Assembly (NCBI GenBank): GCA_021796535.1
Contig: JAKABW010000005.1
Span: forward strand, 1 to 64,000
From: Actinomycetes bacterium
GTDB taxonomy: Bacteria > Actinomycetota > Acidimicrobiia > Acidimicrobiales > Bog-793
Length of the DNA: 64,000 nt
Reading direction: 5' to 3'
The notes beneath the pieces were generated by a model. That model saw only the letters and a program-made list of their open reading frames with translations, ran no database searches and had not been told where the DNA came from. The position numbers and the translations under genes are program-made. Positions 793 through 64,000 of this stretch are shown piece by piece; the first letter of the stretch is position 1; each line of letters opens with the position of its first letter.

Positions 793-1971
793 ATGGAGGT
801 AAAGGATTTAGGGGCGCGTATTAAAACACTTCGTGATGGAATAGAGTCTATAGAGTTAGCAAAGGATGCAGGTATTGACCCTAGTGTGCTCTCGCTTATA
901 GAGGATGGCAAACGGCCGGCGAAGGTTGGAGAGATCGCAAAAATAGCTGAATCTTTAGGAATATCTCCATTGGCGATTCTGGAACCAGACTCTCTACTTG
1001 CACGATTGCCTGTAGCGGCAAGATCGACCACCGATGCGCTGGACAAAGAGATGAACGTTCGTCTAGTTGCTCTTGCAGAACTTCATCATCTTTTGTTTTG
1101 TGCGAGCATTAAGCCAACAATATCAATTTCAGATCTTCCGGATATAGAGGAACTGGAGTGGTTGGATCAGTCAAAAAAATTCGCAAACTGGGCTAAAGAC
1201 AATCTAAAATATAGCAACGGGGATGATCGCTTTAGCAATCTAGTTGTCAGTATAGAAAATAATCTTGGAATTGATATTGTAGTTGAGCCATATGATGATG
1301 CTCTCGGTTCTGCAATCACTGACAAAGAATTCCCGTTGATTCTCATCAATTCGCAACAGCCCAAAAATAGAGCACTGTTTACGCTTGCCCATGAATTGGG
1401 GCATATCTTATTTGGAGATGGTAGAACTATGATGGTTCACCGAAATCTTGAAGGCAAAGACCCTGTAGAACGCAGAGCTAATGCTTTTGCAGCTGAACTT
1501 CTCATGCCTGAAAGGGAAATCAAGAAAATGCTTAAAGCAGAGGAAACCGATTTGATGCGTTTCGCGAAACTGATGGCGCACTTCTCCGTGAGCTGGGAGT
1601 CTCTTATTTACCGTCTCCACAATCTGAGGATTATTAACTCAGCAGGTCGAGATCATTTACGGACTGTTGGATTTGCTGGAATTATTAGATCAGTTGACGA
1701 CAGTGAGCTAGTCAAAAAGCTGGAATTACAGCGCTCGTACCCAGAGCTACATTTTCCGAAGCAGCTGTCAGAAAGGCTAAAGCTAGGATACGTAAGTGGA
1801 ATCGTGAGTGTTAATCCGTTAGCAGGTATCCTTCATCGTGACTCTAATGAACTGCTTGAGGAACTCGAAACTGAACCAATTGCAGAAGAATATATTACCG
1901 AGGCACTTAATCCACTAGCAGACTCAGTAGAGGAGTCCCAAGATGAAGTTTACGCCGGCGAAGCGGTTTAG
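793..1971 (+). CDS. XRE-family HTH / ImmA-IrrE metallopeptidase protein
   Basis: 392 aa. Residues about 1-65 form an XRE-type helix-turn-helix (the LSLIEDGKRPAK segment is the usual recognition-helix end). Residues about 150-245 are an ImmA/IrrE (COG2856) zinc peptidase: HELGH at 200-204 is the HExxH motif and the Glu in the following FAAELLMP (about residue 235) is the third ligand. In this family such proteins cleave repressors or act as antitoxin-like regulators of a neighbouring toxin. The stop overlaps the GTG of the next gene by one base (TAGTG), so the two are translationally coupled. The pairing with a PIN protein suggests a toxin-antitoxin-like unit; that role is inferred. The start follows a leaderless-type promoter. 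Confidence 0.85.
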   Translation: MEVKDLGARIKTLRDGIESIELAKDAGIDPSVLSLIEDGKRPAKVGEIAKIAESLGISPLAILEPDSLLARLPVAARSTTDALDKEMNVRLVALAELHHLLFCASIKPTISISDLPDIEELEWLDQSKKFANWAKDNLKYSNGDDRFSNLVVSIENNLGIDIVVEPYDDALGSAITDKEFPLILINSQQPKNRALFTLAHELGHILFGDGRTMMVHRNLEGKDPVERRANAFAAELLMPEREIKKMLKAEETDLMRFAKLMAHFSVSWESLIYRLHNLRIINSAGRDHLRTVGFAGIIRSVDDSELVKKLELQRSYPELHFPKQLSERLKLGYVSGIVSVNPLAGILHRDSNELLEELETEPIAEEYITEALNPLADSVEESQDEVYAGEAV

Positions 1972-2549
1972 TGCTCACCCCCATTTTATACGATGCCGTC
2001 ACCTTAAACAATTTTGGTGCTATCGATAGCTTGAATGTGCTACAACGCCGTCACGAGAACCACCCCGAGCCTCGTTGGACTGAGCAAGTGTACGAAGAGA
2101 TAGAAAAAGGTGTAAAACTTGGATATTCACATTGTAAGAGAGTCATTGATCAGAAGCTATGGTTTGGTGAACCTGCCAAACTCAACCATAAAGAACAGAT
2201 ACAATTCTTCCAAACCCTCGCGGCTTTAAGCGATGGTACCGGCAAAAATAAAGAAGAGCCTACTGTTACAAAGAACCACGGGGAAGCCGCATCCATCTTG
2301 GTGGCGGAGCGACATGAAGGAACTTTTATGACCGATGATGCCGCCGCATACGATTTTGCTAAGAAGCGATCGGAGACAAGGAAGACAAATGTGATTGCTT
2401 CGATTGACCTTCTTCGTGAGGCAGTTGCGATGGGAGAGTTGAATAATGATAAAGCCGTAGCTCTTGCAACCGGAATTGAGGAGAAAGGTCGGTTTCTACG
2501 CCGGATACATTCGGATAAAATTCGAGATCCTAACTATTTTAGTCGGTAG
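1971..2549 (+). CDS. PIN-domain-like protein, putative RNase toxin partner
   Basis: 192 aa, starting at a GTG that shares its first base with the stop of the XRE-ImmA gene. Features of the PIN fold are visible: an early Asp in the first strand (YDAV, D8), acidic residues at about 42-45 (YEEIEK), the GEAAS motif (E105) and the TDD motif (D122/D123), in the usual order and spacing. PIN proteins are Mg-dependent RNases and many are toxins. I infer that it is the effector of the pair, with the upstream HTH-metallopeptidase as regulator. The C-terminal 40 residues are not recognised. It could instead be an inactive PIN-like regulator, but the acidic residues look intact. Confidence 0.7.
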   Translation: MLTPILYDAVTLNNFGAIDSLNVLQRRHENHPEPRWTEQVYEEIEKGVKLGYSHCKRVIDQKLWFGEPAKLNHKEQIQFFQTLAALSDGTGKNKEEPTVTKNHGEAASILVAERHEGTFMTDDAAAYDFAKKRSETRKTNVIASIDLLREAVAMGELNNDKAVALATGIEEKGRFLRRIHSDKIRDPNYFSR

Positions 2550-56005: not shown

Positions 56006-58195
56006 TTATTTTTTGCCGCTTTTACCAAAAGCCCAGTTTTCAGGGGTTATCGCACCCGAGGGCCCAAATCCGATAAAACCCGTCAAATCTTTTTTGGCCT
56101 GCACCAAATCCTCTGCCGGAGTCGGTTCGTACAGGACGGGCAAGTCGTTTCCCAGGAAGGACAGATACTGCTTTGCCGCGGCGGAATCTGTTCCGGACAA
56201 AAGCGACGACAGTAACGATTGATAATTGGGGTTGGTAAAATTTGAAGCATTGGCACTCGAACCGGCGTCAAGCAAAGACTTGGCCGTCGGGGCGTAAGAA
56301 AGAGCGTAGCTCCAGCCGCCAAAGTAAGCGACGGAAAAATCGCAAGAGGTCTCCCGCAACGTACAGCCTCCGAGGTTTGCCAACAGCTGGCCGGCGGAGA
56401 GCGGCGTGAGGCCCATTTCTATGCCAGCCGCGGCAAAAGACTTGGCTTCCAGTTCCAGTTCGTCCTGAATGGTCATATCTCCCGACAGATACTCTATTTG
56501 CAGCTGCAATTGCGTCCCCTGGGGAACCGACGTCCCGCATCCGGCTTTTGCCATACAGACGTCCACTCCGCCCTTATTTATTTTCCAGCCGTGACTGACA
56601 AGTATCCCAACCGCTTTGCTCTGATTGTAGACGTAAAGCGGCAGGTCCCGATATTTCGGGGTGCCGTAAACTAAGTTATAGCCCGGGATAAGGTTATAAG
56701 TCGGTTTGGCGAAGCCGCCGTAAACGTTTTTGACGATGGCATTCTGATCGATCAGGTACTGCAAAGCTTTTCTGACGTAAGGCAGACGCAACAGTTTCCC
56801 AGACAAAGAGCCGTTTTGGTCAAAGTTGTAAACGGCAAAATCCACATTGTTGTCGTAATTTACGATCTGGCGGTAACCGGCGTGCACCTCCGACAAAATA
56901 ACGGAATTTGACAAATTCGAGACGACCTGCCCGGAAGAAGAAGTGACCGGAACCGTGACGGTAGTCGTTGTCCCGGTTCCCGAAGATCCGCTGTTATAGA
57001 CGGGGGGCGGCAATACGAGATACCCCAAAGACAACTGCCCCAGGGACAGAGCCACCAATTCGTTGTCGTAAGAAGTAAAAGGAATCTCCACAAACTCGGA
57101 CACTTTGGCCTGCACCGGACCGGAATAACGGTTATTGGGCCGGAAAACGGCTTCCCCCGGTGGCATCATCGCTGAAAGCCTCCAGGGGCCGTCGACGACC
57201 TGCCAAATGGGATCGGAGGCAAACGACAGATATGCCGACCTTTCGTACCTGTTGGCCATGGGTTCGTAGCCGGACTGCTGAGCCAAAAACTCATAGACCG
57301 CTTCGCAGGCGTCGGCCCCGGCTGAGGAGGGCAGGTTCTGAGCGTTTAGCGTTACGGAAGAAAATCCCGCCGAGGCGCACCCACCCTGGCCGGGGGGTTC
57401 GTTCTGGTCATCCACATCCCACGCCGCAGGCAACGGAACGATTTGGGAGAGCTCGTCGTCGGTGAAAATTGACGGGTTGGTCGGAACGTAGAGAGTCAGT
57501 CTGATCACCGAAGGGGACACTATCGTGACGCCGCTTACGTCCGCCGGTATTCCCGTGGCTGAATAAGGGGCAAAACGGTGTTGTGGCCCTTCTATTTTAA
57601 CCAAATTCAGCCAAAAAGCCACGTCTTCGGCATTGACCTTTTCACCGTTTGACCAGGACCACATCTTCATTTTTATGGTTACCACTCTGTCCCCCGAAGA
57701 AAAGACCGGCGGATAGGCCAGGGAAAGGCGCTCGTTCAGCGTCGGTTTGGCGGCATTGGAAAACCAGTAAAGCGGCCTGTACATCAAATAGTCAAACTGT
57801 TGGTAATTCGTCGTATTAAAGACTCGCGGACCCTGAATCGGAAAAATAAAATCGGGGATTTTGTTGACCTGCTCGGCAAAAGTGATTACGGCATGCGAGC
57901 GGGCGGTTCCTGCGGATTTTTTGGCCCTGTGTTTGGATTTTCCGGAAGTGCGCAGGCTTATTTTTGACGACAGGGACGCTTTGGCCGCGCCGAGGCCTAC
58001 GTTCGGGCGGGAGAGACCGTAACGGGGCAAAAATGGCTTTTTGCGGGAATATACGACCGCTGTCCGGTGAGTTGTCGCGTTGCCGTTTTTGGAGAAAATA
58101 CCGCCGCCGCCGGGGGGAATAAGCATAATAACGAACAGCGCGACGGTCGGCAAGAAAAACTTTCTTTTCACAAATGTCGGTTTGGTATTTGTCAT
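56006..58195 (-). CDS. Family-5 extracellular solute-binding protein (oligopeptide/nickel ABC type)
   Basis: 729 aa, longer than the usual 520-600. An N-terminal hydrophobic segment (FFLPTVALFVIMLIPPGGG) is a signal/anchor with no clear lipobox. A basic Ser/Arg stretch (about 45-105) precedes the SBP_bac_5 fold, recognisable by the MWSWSNGEKVNAEDVAFWL segment, the DGPWRLS segment, the LLRLPYVRKALQYLIDQ helix and VDVCMAKAG near the second lobe. A Thr/Ser-rich insertion (GTGTTTTVTVPVTSSS) sits near residue 420. No ABC permease or ATPase is adjacent, so it is an orphan binding protein with an unknown peptide-like ligand. Confidence 0.82.
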   Translation of the reverse strand: MTNTKPTFVKRKFFLPTVALFVIMLIPPGGGGIFSKNGNATTHRTAVVYSRKKPFLPRYGLSRPNVGLGAAKASLSSKISLRTSGKSKHRAKKSAGTARSHAVITFAEQVNKIPDFIFPIQGPRVFNTTNYQQFDYLMYRPLYWFSNAAKPTLNERLSLAYPPVFSSGDRVVTIKMKMWSWSNGEKVNAEDVAFWLNLVKIEGPQHRFAPYSATGIPADVSGVTIVSPSVIRLTLYVPTNPSIFTDDELSQIVPLPAAWDVDDQNEPPGQGGCASAGFSSVTLNAQNLPSSAGADACEAVYEFLAQQSGYEPMANRYERSAYLSFASDPIWQVVDGPWRLSAMMPPGEAVFRPNNRYSGPVQAKVSEFVEIPFTSYDNELVALSLGQLSLGYLVLPPPVYNSGSSGTGTTTTVTVPVTSSSGQVVSNLSNSVILSEVHAGYRQIVNYDNNVDFAVYNFDQNGSLSGKLLRLPYVRKALQYLIDQNAIVKNVYGGFAKPTYNLIPGYNLVYGTPKYRDLPLYVYNQSKAVGILVSHGWKINKGGVDVCMAKAGCGTSVPQGTQLQLQIEYLSGDMTIQDELELEAKSFAAAGIEMGLTPLSAGQLLANLGGCTLRETSCDFSVAYFGGWSYALSYAPTAKSLLDAGSSANASNFTNPNYQSLLSSLLSGTDSAAAKQYLSFLGNDLPVLYEPTPAEDLVQAKKDLTGFIGFGPSGAITPENWAFGKSGKK

Positions 58196-58546: not shown

Positions 58547-60820
58547 CTACTCAAATATTAGCTCCTCTTGCAGTTTATGATAAATATCTATCTTGACGTC
58601 GATATCTATCTCGCTGACCAACCAACCGGCCATTTGTGCTTTTTGCTTAAAGTCGTAAATTCTGTTTACACCTTTTATTTCTTTGAGCGTTACGACCAAT
58701 CCAAACTTGATACCATGGTCAGACCGCTTTCCCAAACGTTCTTTTGCCTTAACACTGATACCCCACATACCTCGTTCTGAATAGACTTTCCTTGCTTTAA
58801 GATGTTCTCCGTATTGCTCCCTTATATGCTTCGTATTGTCCCACTTGCGAAACGATTTTCTGGCCTCCGCCTCGTATGTATAGTGCCCTTCGACATTTTG
58901 CATATTCTTATTTATGGGTCTTATGCCTTTGTTTGGGTCGAATCTTCCCAAAGATACGTCAAGTTCGGTATTGGTATAGTCGACACCCTGCTTGAAGGAG
59001 CAGTCGGGAAAGTAGCAAAGGGTGGCTTTTGCCACAAAGGTGTGCTCGCCTTTGACAACCGGAACGGGAATACTATAAGTATAAGTATCGTATTGCAGCG
59101 ATTCACCGTTTATAACAAACTTTATTTCATGGTCTTTTGATCTTACAATGTTTTCAATTCTTCTCGGCACGACCCCGTGTCCGACCAGAGGCGCCAATTT
59201 TGAGTTATTTCCGGTATCATTCCAATCAGCGGCGGCATCCACTATCAAGGCCTTCGCCACTTCACGGCTGAGTCCCAACACCTCCGTCAAGTATGCCAGT
59301 TTGCGGGCAATCCACGGTGCGGCAAATGACGTGCCTGCCGTCAATTTATAACACGAAGTCGATTCGCATACCTGTATCAGTGTTTCGCAGTTTTGGCCGT
59401 CACCGCCAAATGTACTGACATCAGGTTTATTGAAAAAAGAAAGGACCCTGCCTCTTCTGGAATAAGACGCGGGGTTGCCTTTACTGTCGACAGAATTGAC
59501 CACAATTGCATTGATGGAGTCAGCGGGAGCACCGATCAACATCTCTTCTCTGTCGTCAGAGAGTTTATTGGTGCCGGCTATTACAAAAATAATGTCATTT
59601 TCGAACTGCAATCTGTCCAATACCGACGCCTCCGGAGAAATAAAGTTTTCATGTACTTCCAGCGGCGAGCCCAACGACAGGTTCCATACTTTAATATCGG
59701 GGTTGGCGGAAACTATTTCTTTTAGAAGATTCATCACACTAAAAGAACTGTATTTCCCGCCCTTGGCTACTCCAAAATGTCTCACCCTAAAACGACCGCA
59801 CCCATCGTCCAATGCGGGATTCAATTGAGGGCCGTCCACTATGATCGACGATACCGCCGTTCCGTGCCGGTAATCGCCATCGTCTTCCGGTATTTCCGGA
59901 TCGGTTTTGTCATGATATTCTACCCAATCGCCAAAATATACAGATTTGTCAAACAACGTATCGATGACTCCGATCACCGGCTCGTCGGCAGGCATGTCAA
60001 TGGAAAAAGACGGGCCGGATTCCGCATCCGCAGTAAAATCTTCCAGACTTAGATTATTTATATCTTCTAAAGCCATAGCAATAAGATACGGGGCCTTATT
60101 CTGAAGGAGTTCTATTGCTTTTGGCTGTAGCAGCATCATGGTATTGGTGTCGTAAAACATTTTATAATCTGTTGAGGCTATCCCAATATTTCTTAAAATC
60201 ACATCCATATCCTCATCAGTTGCATATAAAGTGACAACCTGTCGAGTGCCGGGATTCGCACTTTGATGTGGGATGCCGAAACTTTTTATGTAGTATGAAT
60301 CGACAATGATCTGTAAAAAATTTGATTTCGAGATGGCGTAATCAAGAAACTCAATACCGTGAGAGGCTCCATTAGCACCTATATCTTCTTCTATACACTT
60401 CTCGGTAATGCCGTTGCTAAAATGCTCGTCCAGGATTTTGATACTGTTTTCGATATTGGTAACGGTATTCCGAACTACCTCACGCATAACGTAATGAGTA
60501 ATTACATGTTTCGGATTTTTTACATCTGTATTGTCAAAACGGGCACCCACAACAGACTCATTTGGCGGTTTATCATTTTTTAAGTATGCGCTTATTCTAT
60601 TGCTCTTTGCCATGACACCTATATAGTGTACGTCTATCAGGATACCCTTGATAAGTCTCTCACCGTTCCAGTATTGTTGAATATCTTTTAAGTCGTTTAG
60701 TAACTTTCTCAAGTGGGTAGAAGTGACCGGTTTTGCGTTTTTCGGAAGCCTCGGGGGACCCGGCCTACCGGTATTCGGTCTGTGATTTAAATTACCTTTC
60801 AGCTGCAAAATATTGTTCAT
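58547..60820 (-). CDS. ietS: Subtilisin-like serine protease of an IetAS module
   Basis: 757 aa, no signal peptide, so cytosolic. The N-terminal 280 residues are not recognised in detail. The S8 domain (about 280-560) has Asp in VIGVIDTLFD (D287), His in DYRHGTAVS (H319), oxyanion Asn in IAGTNK (N418) and Ser in TAGTSFAAPW (S498), all in order and intact. A C-terminal region of about 200 residues follows. Its ATG lies four bases after the ietA stop, so the two are coupled. A subtilase paired with an AAA ATPase is the IetAS arrangement, described as a plasmid stability toxin-antitoxin system in Agrobacterium and later as an anti-phage system. The protease is the presumed toxin. The gene is visibly more AT-rich than its neighbours. 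Confidence 0.85.
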   Translation of the reverse strand: MNNILQLKGNLNHRPNTGRPGPPRLPKNAKPVTSTHLRKLLNDLKDIQQYWNGERLIKGILIDVHYIGVMAKSNRISAYLKNDKPPNESVVGARFDNTDVKNPKHVITHYVMREVVRNTVTNIENSIKILDEHFSNGITEKCIEEDIGANGASHGIEFLDYAISKSNFLQIIVDSYYIKSFGIPHQSANPGTRQVVTLYATDEDMDVILRNIGIASTDYKMFYDTNTMMLLQPKAIELLQNKAPYLIAMALEDINNLSLEDFTADAESGPSFSIDMPADEPVIGVIDTLFDKSVYFGDWVEYHDKTDPEIPEDDGDYRHGTAVSSIIVDGPQLNPALDDGCGRFRVRHFGVAKGGKYSSFSVMNLLKEIVSANPDIKVWNLSLGSPLEVHENFISPEASVLDRLQFENDIIFVIAGTNKLSDDREEMLIGAPADSINAIVVNSVDSKGNPASYSRRGRVLSFFNKPDVSTFGGDGQNCETLIQVCESTSCYKLTAGTSFAAPWIARKLAYLTEVLGLSREVAKALIVDAAADWNDTGNNSKLAPLVGHGVVPRRIENIVRSKDHEIKFVINGESLQYDTYTYSIPVPVVKGEHTFVAKATLCYFPDCSFKQGVDYTNTELDVSLGRFDPNKGIRPINKNMQNVEGHYTYEAEARKSFRKWDNTKHIREQYGEHLKARKVYSERGMWGISVKAKERLGKRSDHGIKFGLVVTLKEIKGVNRIYDFKQKAQMAGWLVSEIDIDVKIDIYHKLQEELIFE

Positions 60821-60824
60821 ATAC

Positions 60825-61856
60825 TTATTCTTTCAATTCACGGGATACCTGACTTTTTGAAACACCTGTCAAAATTTCTATATCGCGGACAGAAAACCCT
60901 TCTTGTTGAAGCTTTTTTAAGTCACTGCTTGTCTGGTGTATGGCTTCGTATAGCTTTTTCAAATAATCGAATTCACTCGATGAATCACTGAAAGCCATCG
61001 CCCTTTTTATTATATTTTTCAGTTCGCCGGGATAAGGGATATCGTTCATGGTAGCCATGATTTTCCTGAACAAATTTATATTGCGTCCGGCAAATTTAAA
61101 CTTTGGCAACAAACTATTGACAATTGATTCGGCAACTTCCATGAGGTCTTCTCTGCTGTATCTGTTAAAATTGATGACAGCATCAAATCGTCTTGTTAAA
61201 GCTTTGTCAAAGCGATTATACAGGTTCGTGGTAGCCACAAGCACGACACTGTCGCTTAGTCTGTCAAGACCTTTGAGGACTGATGAAGTGACCCGCCCCA
61301 TTTCTCGCAAATCGTTAGAGTTGACGCGATCCATGGCTATTGCATCTATTTCATCAAATAAGATAATCACTTGATCCGGATTTGGCAGAGCATATACCTC
61401 TTGGAATAACGATGCAATATTCTTTGAAGTTTGACCAAGTTTACTGTCAATAATACTGTCGAAATTAACGGCATACAGGTCACGCTTCAGTATGCGTGCT
61501 ATCTGTTTTGCAGTTTCGGTCTTACCTGTACCCGGATCGCCTTCAAATAAAAACTTGTTCATCCCGCCATTGTAATTAATTGAATTAATAACACCCAACA
61601 CATCATTTTTGATCAAAACAGGAAGCGGTAACGGGGTGGCATCCAAATTTATCTTACAGAAAAAGGACGATTCGTATTCGCTGCTTTGCGGCAGAAAAGT
61701 ATTGACGCCGGAAAGCAAGGCCATTATATATTCAGCCAGTTGTGAATCACCGCTCTGATCAAACAAGCGCGCTATGATGTAAGCTTCGTTTCTGAAACCG
61801 GCCTCGTTATTCTCAGAGTGGTACTTTATAAGATTGAGTATGTTTCTTTTGCGCAT
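60825..61856 (-). CDS. ietA: AAA ATPase of an IetAS module
   Basis: 343 aa from the ATG at 61856, preceded by GGCGGA; the track GTG at 61916 lies inside the regulatory repeats, lacks a ribosome site, and adds 20 residues. The N-terminal helical part (RKRNILNLIKYHSENNEAGFRN) resembles the family start. AAA core: GDPGTGKTETA (106-113), IILFDEIDAIA (165-172), sensor VLVATTN (Asn211) and an arginine pair in LTRRFD (222-223). The C-terminus (GFSVRDIEILTGVSKSQVS) is a helix-turn-helix, which could bind the repeats upstream and autoregulate. In the known system this protein is the antitoxin-like partner of the protease. Confidence 0.85.
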   Translation of the reverse strand: MRKRNILNLIKYHSENNEAGFRNEAYIIARLFDQSGDSQLAEYIMALLSGVNTFLPQSSEYESSFFCKINLDATPLPLPVLIKNDVLGVINSINYNGGMNKFLFEGDPGTGKTETAKQIARILKRDLYAVNFDSIIDSKLGQTSKNIASLFQEVYALPNPDQVIILFDEIDAIAMDRVNSNDLREMGRVTSSVLKGLDRLSDSVVLVATTNLYNRFDKALTRRFDAVINFNRYSREDLMEVAESIVNSLLPKFKFAGRNINLFRKIMATMNDIPYPGELKNIIKRAMAFSDSSSEFDYLKKLYEAIHQTSSDLKKLQQEGFSVRDIEILTGVSKSQVSRELKE

Positions 61857-61882
61857 TTGTTCCGCCACAAGCCCATCATAAC

Positions 61883-61899
61883 AACCTTGGGACAAGGTT
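61883..61899. promoter_or_regulatory. Inner inverted repeat in the ietA leader
   Basis: AACCTTG and CAAGGTT flank GGA: perfect 7-bp arms between the AT-rich repeat and the ietA start. It is a candidate operator for the ietA HTH tail. Confidence 0.5.
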
Positions 61900-61933
61900 A
61901 CAATATTTTGGGACACAAAGTCATAATATTGTA
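61899..61933. promoter_or_regulatory. Outer AT-rich inverted repeat in the ietA promoter
   Basis: TACAATATT and AATATTGTA are perfect 9-bp arms 17 bases apart. On the minus strand the upstream arm (TACAATATTATG) can serve as a -10 region, so a bound regulator would block the promoter. Confidence 0.5.
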
Positions 61934-62063: not shown

Positions 62064-63011
62064 CTAATCGCGACAGGCTGCCCCCACAATATCGCTCAGC
62101 TTTTCTATGCCGTTGGCCAGACAGAATTTCCCGATTTCGCGCAAGACATTGAGAGTGGCCTTGGGGTTGGCCAAGGTCGCCGTCCCCACTTCCACGGCAT
62201 TTGCCCCGGCCATCATCATGGCTATGGCATCTTCGCCGTGAGAAATTCCTCCCACGCCTATGATCGGAGCCCCAGGAAAAGCTTTGCGGCAATCATAAAC
62301 CGCCTTTATGGCCACCGTATGCAGAGCCCGGCCGGAAAGTCCGCCCGAAATACCGCCCAATTTGGGCTTTCTTTCAAGAATGTCGATCGCCATGGCCGGC
62401 ATGGTATTTACCAGCACCAGTCCTTCCGCCCCGTTTTCCAAAGCGGCTGCGGCGACTCGCGTCAATTCGCTTGCCGCCGGCGAAAGCTTGACAAAAAACG
62501 GCAGACCGAAATCTTTCAGTGCCGCCGCGATCTCTCCCGTCTTGAGCGGAGAGTACGAAAAAAGTTTGCCGGCATCCTCCACGTTGGGACAGGATACGTT
62601 AATTTCCGCCGCCAGCAGATCGTCTTTTACGGAAACCAGTTTTTCTGCCGCAGCGGCAAAATCCGCCACCGTTTTGCCCCAAACGGAACAGATTACTTTG
62701 GCTCCGCTCCGTTTCAGGGCGGGCAAATCCGTTTCCAGCCATGAGTCGATGCCGTCTCCCTGCAAGCCCACGCTGTTCAGCATCCCGACCGTCAGTGGCA
62801 CAAGCCTGGGGGCTTTGTTGCCTGGCGTCGAAAATACGGCCACAGACTTTGTCACGACGGCCCCGAGCAAAGAAATATCGAAATAGTCCGCCAACTCGGC
62901 AGCGTGACCGGCCGTGCCGGAAGCCGTCAACACCGGATTCTCGAGATGCACGCGGCCGAGCTCACAGGATAAATCCGGGCCGGCCGGCAGAATGTCTTTC
63001 TTATTTTTCAA
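62064..63011 (-). CDS. pyrD: Dihydroorotate dehydrogenase, class 1B catalytic subunit
   Basis: 315 aa from the TTG at 63011, overlapping the carB stop by 11 bases, with GGGGCG eight bases upstream; the track extension lies in carB. FMN barrel: ENPVLTASGTAGHAAELADY, the KSVAVFSTPGNKAPRL segment, catalytic Cys in EINVSCPNVEDAG (Cys is typical of class 1), the Lys in FFVKLSPAA and GVGGISHGEDAIAMMMAGA for FMN phosphate. Class 1B uses NAD through PyrK; pyrK is not in the window. Confidence 0.94.
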   Translation of the reverse strand: MKNKKDILPAGPDLSCELGRVHLENPVLTASGTAGHAAELADYFDISLLGAVVTKSVAVFSTPGNKAPRLVPLTVGMLNSVGLQGDGIDSWLETDLPALKRSGAKVICSVWGKTVADFAAAAEKLVSVKDDLLAAEINVSCPNVEDAGKLFSYSPLKTGEIAAALKDFGLPFFVKLSPAASELTRVAAAALENGAEGLVLVNTMPAMAIDILERKPKLGGISGGLSGRALHTVAIKAVYDCRKAFPGAPIIGVGGISHGEDAIAMMMAGANAVEVGTATLANPKATLNVLREIGKFCLANGIEKLSDIVGAACRD

Positions 63012-64000
63012 GTTGGTTCGCCCCGGTAAAAAAATGCATTTCCTGCAGCGGGACGACATCCAAACCTTTGGAATTGACTTCACCGATGCTGGAGGCGGCG
63101 GCCTTGGCCGCCGAAACCGTCGTGATGAGGGGTATGTGATTCACCTGCGCCACATGCCGTATGTACTGCCCGTCGGCGTGCGGACCGCGCCCTCTCGGGG
63201 TGTTGATCACCAGATGCACCAGCTTTTGCTCTATCAAATCCACCGCCGTGCCGAAATAATGCCTGTCGGAAGTGTCCGATTCCGCTTTGCCGTCCATGGA
63301 GAGTTTGGCCACCAAAATATCCGGAGCAACGCCGTTCTCCGACAGGTAGTCATAAGTGCCGCTCGTGGCAGCTATTTTGAAACCGTTTTCTTGCAATATT
63401 TTGGCGACTTTCAAGCCCTGAGGCTTATCGTGGTCCGCCAGGGACATGAATACGCCGCCGGAACGCGGGATGGTATTTGACGCCGCCAGTTGGCTCTTGT
63501 AAAAAGCCAGACCGAAGTTGGGAGCTATCCCCATCACTTCGCCGGTGCTACGCATTTCCGGGCCCAGCAGGGCATCCACATCAGGAAAGCGGTCAAAGGG
63601 CAAAACCGCTTCTTTTACGCAGACAAACTCACTTTGCCTGGCGCTTGCCGCGGTCGGCGTGTCGCGGGTCCAGTCTTTTCCGAAGACGTCAACGCCTTCC
63701 GGTATGATGCCGGAACCGGTCAGTTCCGCTATGGACTCGCCGGCGATGACCCTGGCAGCTATTTTGGCAAGCGGCACACCGGTGGCTTTGGCCACGAACG
63801 GCACGGTTCTGCTGGCTCTGGGGTTGGCTTCTATCACAAACACTTTGCCGTCTTTTACGGCGTATTGAACGTTGAGAGGTCCGACGACCGCAAGGGCCGC
63901 CGCAATTCTAAAAGTATAGTCTTTTATCACGGCAACGACGTCTTCCGGAAGCGTGGGAGGAGGCGTCGCACAGGCCGAGTCGCCGGAATGGATGCCCGCT
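63001..64000 (-). CDS. carB: Carbamoyl-phosphate synthase large chain, 3' part
   Basis: Partial: the frame continues past the right edge (AGIHSGDSACATPPPTLP is readable at 63938-64000). The segment covers the end of the second ATP-grasp half (VFVIEANPRASRTVPFVAKATG) and the C-terminal allosteric MGS-like domain (FGLAFYKSQLAASN, VAKILQENGFKIAATSGTYDYL, VHLVINTPRGRG). With the small chain it makes carbamoyl phosphate for pyrimidine and arginine synthesis. It overlaps pyrD. Confidence 0.97.
   Translation of the reverse strand, partial: AGIHSGDSACATPPPTLPEDVVAVIKDYTFRIAAALAVVGPLNVQYAVKDGKVFVIEANPRASRTVPFVAKATGVPLAKIAARVIAGESIAELTGSGIIPEGVDVFGKDWTRDTPTAASARQSEFVCVKEAVLPFDRFPDVDALLGPEMRSTGEVMGIAPNFGLAFYKSQLAASNTIPRSGGVFMSLADHDKPQGLKVAKILQENGFKIAATSGTYDYLSENGVAPDILVAKLSMDGKAESDTSDRHYFGTAVDLIEQKLVHLVINTPRGRGPHADGQYIRHVAQVNHIPLITTVSAAKAAASSIGEVNSKGLDVVPLQEMHFFTGANQLEK

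Follow-up and report, generated by a model that had tools for sequence, protein, structure and literature searches.

An IetAS-type protease-ATPase module of a cross-phylum subfamily, with a conserved, predicted TGTCCC operator, inserted beside pyrD in an actinobacterial chromosome

Subtilisin-like proteases held in check by AAA ATPases are known from both chromosomes and mobile elements. In the mycoplasma system TA132/3, the AAA-ATPase A132 neutralises the subtilisin-like protease T133, and deletion of the antitoxin alone is lethal; M. hyorhinis is named as one of the carriers of this system (PMC8562856). In the sgiAT pair of SGI1, too, the toxin is a subtilase and an AAA ATPase neutralises it. 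This pair and the ietAS pair of pTiC58 are described as acting in incompatibility and in the stability of plasmids or islands, and when sgiAT was expressed from its own promoter in E. coli there was no post-segregational killing (PMC5006074).

We analysed a pair of this kind in an actinobacterial genome (G000). The window, i.e., the whole stretch of DNA that was analysed, spans 64,000 nucleotides. We consider with fairly good confidence that the pair is a horizontally acquired, self-contained toxin-antitoxin module of the IetAS type, probably anti-phage, which belongs to a distinct cross-phylum subfamily and is autoregulated by IetA. The features of the locus are the following.

56006..58195, minus strand: gene for a family 5 extracellular solute-binding protein (SBP), the downstream neighbour (profile match, relatives' loci)
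58547..60820, minus strand: ietS, a subtilase of 757 aa, the toxin by kind (ORF, Pfam, PADLOC, alignment, structure model)
60825..61856, minus strand: ietA, an AAA ATPase of 343 aa, the antitoxin by kind, from the probable, corrected start ATG 61856 (the listed ORF extends to GTG 61916)
60837..60920, minus strand: codons of the C-terminal helix-turn-helix (HTH) of IetA, residues 313-340 of 343 (AlphaFold helices, invariant residues)
61875..61903, minus strand: predicted ietA promoter, with -35 TTGTAA at 61903-61898, a 17-bp spacer and -10 TATGAT at 61880-61875
61889..61915, minus strand: predicted operator, a tandem TGTCCC-N15-TGTCCC in a 21-bp register (alignment of upstream regions, census)
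62064..63083, minus strand: pyrD, the upstream neighbour and a host core gene (profile matches, relatives' loci)

The two genes lie on the same strand, ietA before ietS, with a gap of four bases, as the ORF list had first indicated. Both proteins matched the PADLOC profiles of the system (IetS with PDLC02197 at 4.3e-65, residues 256-745; IetA with PDLC02196 at 1.5e-45, residues 120-362). With the genes adjacent in the order A then S, and the triad and Walker A/B motifs intact, the likeness to IetAS proposed in the earlier note holds at the level of kind. The scores against the NCBIfam equivalogs were below threshold, with 160.6 bits for IteS (NF042956, cut-off 900) and 123.6 bits for IteA (NF042959, cut-off 510). 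Because both proteins fall far under these cut-offs, we class the pair, on sequence similarity, as of the IetAS kind but in a divergent subfamily. By analogy with systems of the same kind, for which others have shown these roles, the toxin here would be the protease, with the ATPase as its antitoxin. The lack of post-segregational killing by sgiAT in E. coli counts against this reading.

IetS matched the Pfam family Peptidase_S8 (7e-33, residues 280-540). The complete D287-H319-S498 triad that had been read from the sequence does not vary among 27 homologues drawn from many phyla, and neither does N418, the likely oxyanion residue. The structure model (pLDDT 80) comprises an N-terminal region (residues 1-252), a catalytic domain (about 276-545) and a C-terminal beta domain (about 565-714). 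A search of PDB sequences with IetS gave no match at 0.001. The best fold match of the model was an archaeal pro-subtilisin (ProN-Tk-SP), and the top five included an unautoprocessed pro-subtilisin E. Because residues 178-252 follow the b-a-b-b-a-b order of the subtilisin propeptide, ahead of a low-confidence linker that leads to the catalytic domain, the model points, short of proof, to a pro-domain within IetS itself.

IetA matched the Pfam AAA family (1e-24), and its Walker A and B motifs, sensor Asn and arginine pair (RR222-223) are invariant in the 27 homologues. Its fold neighbours are Rix7, TRIP13 and the proteasome ATPases. The HTH tail initially proposed for this ATPase appears in the AlphaFold model as a C-terminal tri-helix (residues 313-318, 323-330 and 334-340), in which R324, E327, K334, S335 and R339 are invariant (343-aa numbering). 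The reading frame first given for ietA is present, but its start had been placed about 20 codons too far upstream, at GTG 61916, which falls at the predicted promoter and operator. The common start of the homologues, which begin M(K/R)KKNILNLIKY, corresponds to ATG 61856. In TM7 and other homologues, in-frame stop codons close the frame upstream of this ATG, so ATG 61856 is probably the true start, giving a protein of 343 aa.

The genomic context shows an insertion at the pyrD-SBP site. A congener (G001; JAKBPI01, Actinomycetes bacterium LSA5.bin10) has the same pair at this position, flanked by pyrD and the SBP gene. G002, a congener more distant than G001, provides the empty site that the earlier note had proposed to look for: some 300 bp separate pyrD from the SBP gene there, and the module is absent. 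The SBP gene also adjoins pyrD in several module-free members of the family. Full-length homologues were found in two of the 98 relatives searched, i.e., the genome of the window and G001. In the order as a whole, four of 397 genomes gave matches of same-subfamily strength, and the match in one of these (G148) probably comes from a misbinned contig. The GC content of the pair is 0.405/0.436, against 0.53-0.57 for pyrD, carB, SBP, coaBC, metK and priA, and it is about 0.42-0.43 in both G000 and G001, where core genes are at about 0.55 and 0.49. Presence in all relatives with a core-like composition, named at the outset as the pattern that would speak against transfer, is not what we find. The transfer first suggested from AT-richness is further indicated by the empty site in G002, by the lack of the pair in the remaining members of the family that were searched and by its position in the tree described below. 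The exact junction was not found, because the intergenic region of G002 has diverged too far from those of G000 and G001 for alignment, and there are no conspicuous flanking repeats.

The site had also been described as one where pyrimidine genes usually lie. The pair does adjoin pyrD, but it did not replace pyrF, because pyrF lies apart from pyrD in the congeners too. In the genome of the window pyrF is some 60 kb from the module (C35:122747); it is also separate from pyrD in G001, G002 and G005, and lies beside it in G016, G021 and G045. The SBP gene (56006-58195, minus strand) separates the pyr genes from mihF here and in other members of the family.

The window and G001 are 73.5% identical for IetA and 61% for IetS, compared with 77% for pyrD and 71% for the SBP. 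Their comparison gave dN values of 0.28 and 0.18, with dS about 2 or saturated, and the neighbouring genes behaved alike. Because both genes are under purifying selection between the congeners, the sequences indicate that the module has been kept since before G000 and G001 split. G001 also has a second, distant IetAS pair at the end of a contig (G001:C24:571-3391, L040), with an IetA about 30% identical.

This inheritance bears on whether the pair is purely an addiction or stability module, selfishly maintained and with no anti-phage role. We regard this as the most serious alternative, though a rather unlikely one. The ietAS of pTiC58 and the sgiAT of SGI1 do serve stability and incompatibility (PMC5006074), and close relatives of the window pair are found on plasmids. 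Yet the pair is chromosomal, lies among core genes and has been kept since two species diverged, which favours a benefit, and both PADLOC and NCBIfam list systems of this kind as anti-phage. The toxin-antitoxin module that we favour would probably also act in phage defence.

The region upstream of ietA has a common layout in the aligned relatives: a TGTCCC repeat, the -35 box (TTGACA, or TTGA in many), a second TGTCCC within the spacer, TATAAT, a short leader and the ATG. The predicted operator of the window is TGTCCCAAAATATTGTAACCTTGTCCC (61915-61889). Its -35 TTGTAA stands between the two TGTCCC repeats, and a TG precedes the -10 TATGAT. We found the tandem TGTCCC-N14/15-TGTCCC in 32 of the 36 subfamily loci, from about seven phyla, 23 of them exact; this census allowed at most one mismatch and a spacing of 20 or 21 bp, and a match that good occurs in 0.04% of shuffles. 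For one locus (L076) the census scan covered a larger stretch, and its operator is nonetheless just upstream of its ATG. This conserved operator is new here and absent from the first description. Neither the operator nor autoregulation was found described in the literature searched, a scope that did not include Yamamoto 2009 (pTiC58).

We scanned eight whole genomes for the tandem. G001, G148, G255, TM7 and the Magasanikbacterium each have a single copy, located at ietA, and the 2.0-Mb genome of the window has two, at ietA and at one coding site. The tandem is absent from the G002 and L075 genomes, the site of L075 having one mismatch, and a reversed control pattern had zero occurrences in the eight genomes. 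The second tandem of the window's genome (on C13) was rejected as an operator: it is inside a glycosyltransferase-like gene and without a -35 box, and we attribute it to chance. Out of sample, the operator was found on a Carnobacterium plasmid and, by the pattern alone, upstream of ietA in the viral contig L167 and in G255. The scan of viral contigs, with a pattern of 15 fixed bases, returned about 120 stretches, of which one (L167) was upstream of ietA; with so few fixed bases, most of what such a scan returns is noise.

Of the four loci without the operator, three encode an IetA with a missing or modified HTH. In M. hyorhinis, IetA has no recognition helix and the operator is also gone, and in two Macrococcus plasmids the recognition helix has SIS for SKS and there is no TGTCCC tandem. 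The locus L091 has a near-normal HTH and no tandem, which counts against the pairing of IetA with the operator. Upstream of its ietA there is instead a half-site in reverse, GGGACA. Among 15 distant IetA loci, only that of Enterococcus durans is within one mismatch of the operator, and its helix is also SKS. Because these loci with a defective or changed HTH also lack the operator, IetA is probably both the antitoxin and the autorepressor of its own promoter, acting through its HTH on the TGTCCC repeats. The locus has the two elements expected of an autoregulated toxin-antitoxin operon, i.e., an antitoxin with an HTH, and a promoter with a conserved site.

It is improbable that the repeats are instead the site of a host regulator or part of the coding sequence of a longer IetA. 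The frame through them is open in the window from GTG 61916, but stop codons break it in TM7 and other homologues. Moreover, the repeats are conserved in phyla whose host regulators are unrelated, keep a fixed register to the -35 and -10 boxes, and disappear where the HTH is lost or changed. In the autoregulated module that we propose, IetS would be an intracellular subtilisin-like protease toxin kept harmless by the AAA ATPase IetA, whose HTH would bind the two repeats around the -35 box and repress the operon. The loss, sequestration or titration of IetA, e.g., upon phage infection or loss of the module, might then derepress the operon, and free IetS would cleave host proteins and growth would stop.

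In a collection-wide search, IetA matched about 30 relatives, and identity was 58-74% for most of them; they come from Saccharibacteria, Magasanikbacteria, other Patescibacteria, Fusobacteria, Clostridia, Bacilli, a spirochaete, Elusimicrobia and a mollicute. In complete homologues ietS adjoins ietA, always in the order A then S, and the pair is found on virus contigs as well as plasmids. The window pair is 71.5% (IetA) and 61% (IetS) identical to that of the oral TM7 HOT-348, and the congener G001 is no closer (73.5% and 61%). A host housekeeping protease-unfoldase devoted to quality control is therefore a very improbable reading of the pair: an AAA protein with a protease resembles the logic of FtsH and the proteasome, the fold of IetA matches Rix7, TRIP13 and proteasome ATPases, and selection has been purifying since the congeners' split, but full-length homologues are limited to two of 98 relatives and about four of 397 genomes of the order, the site is empty in G002, relatives in other phyla are as similar as the congener's copy, and the pair occurs on plasmids and virus contigs.

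The tree of the two proteins places this horizontally acquired module more precisely. G000 and G001 are sisters (100/99) in a clade of six (100/100). The remaining four are TM7 HOT-348, L094 (of the same class as TM7, judged by matching coordinates), the copy in G255 and the one on the G148 contig; the wider clade otherwise consists of Patescibacteria and two further bacteria. The G255 copy is sister to TM7 HOT-348 (100/98), and we take it as truly actinobacterial because it adjoins PhoH and BldD-like genes. A single clade of actinobacterial copies was rejected (AU p=2e-4), as was a single clade of patescibacterial copies. G148 was not retained as a further actinobacterial carrier: its second TatC is closer to the TatC of Saccharibacteria than to the other TatC of the genome, and the contig is probably misbinned. 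That contig (G148:C26, L102; about 114 kb) carries the Saccharibacteria-like second TatC, the IetAS pair and a SIR2-like gene.

In this phylogeny the nearest relatives are in Saccharibacteria, and the actinobacterial copies nest in a mainly patescibacterial clade. In our interpretation the module moved between Saccharibacteria and Actinobacteria two or more times, within the limits of rooting, sampling and draft genomes. Because the actinobacterial copies nest inside, transfer into Actinobacteria is the more likely direction. Known Saccharibacteria live on Actinobacteria as epibionts. Conjugation-type machinery has been described in Patescibacteria and is a possible route, not evidence for transfer (PMC12102498). 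Upstream of ietA in G255 (G255:C26, L229) there is what looks like a decayed IS605-type OrfB/TnpB gene, with a zinc-ribbon motif recognised by eye, which might be a vehicle.

More tentatively, the IetAS subfamily could be a cross-phylum cassette with its own promoter and an IetA-bound operator, and could have crossed between Saccharibacteria and Actinobacteria two or more times, leaving an episymbiont lineage and the phylum of its hosts with a shared protease-based suicide or defence switch. The conserved operator, not found where the HTH has been lost or changed, provides IetAS with a testable control circuit, and it could explain how the module functions in many phyla without host regulators. 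The TGTCCC tandem provides a DNA signature for members of the subfamily, and the sharing with Saccharibacteria makes the module a candidate case of genes moving between the lineages of a parasite and its host. Elsewhere in the window (793-2549, plus strand), a GC-poor segment (about 0.43) encodes an HTH and ImmA/IrrE-type (Peptidase_M78) protein matching PADLOC capP and RmrA, followed by a 192-aa ORF without family; these are a candidate toxin-antitoxin or defence pair.

Compared with the described systems, the window pair is chromosomal, whereas pTiC58 ietAS and SGI1 sgiAT ride on mobile elements; these two are likened to it by description, not by sequence. The iteA-iteS pair of the Acidovorax plasmid p1-T1, encoded beside a Shedu gene, has the same domains, gene order, catalytic residues and PADLOC profiles. 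Its IetS is 25% identical to that of the window over the catalytic and C-terminal part, the N-terminal regions being unmatched, and its IetA is 39% identical over 125 residues of the AAA core. Unlike the window subfamily, IetAS of the p1-T1 type have no TGTCCC tandem. TA132/3 resembles the window pair in its antitoxin-toxin order, in protein size (353/757 aa, against 343/757 aa), in being chromosomal and in its horizontal spread. The IetS of M. hyorhinis, which we compared instead of the M. mycoides sequence, is 43% identical to that of the window over its full length. The two differ in their control: M. hyorhinis is without the HTH recognition helix and the operator, whereas the window has both.
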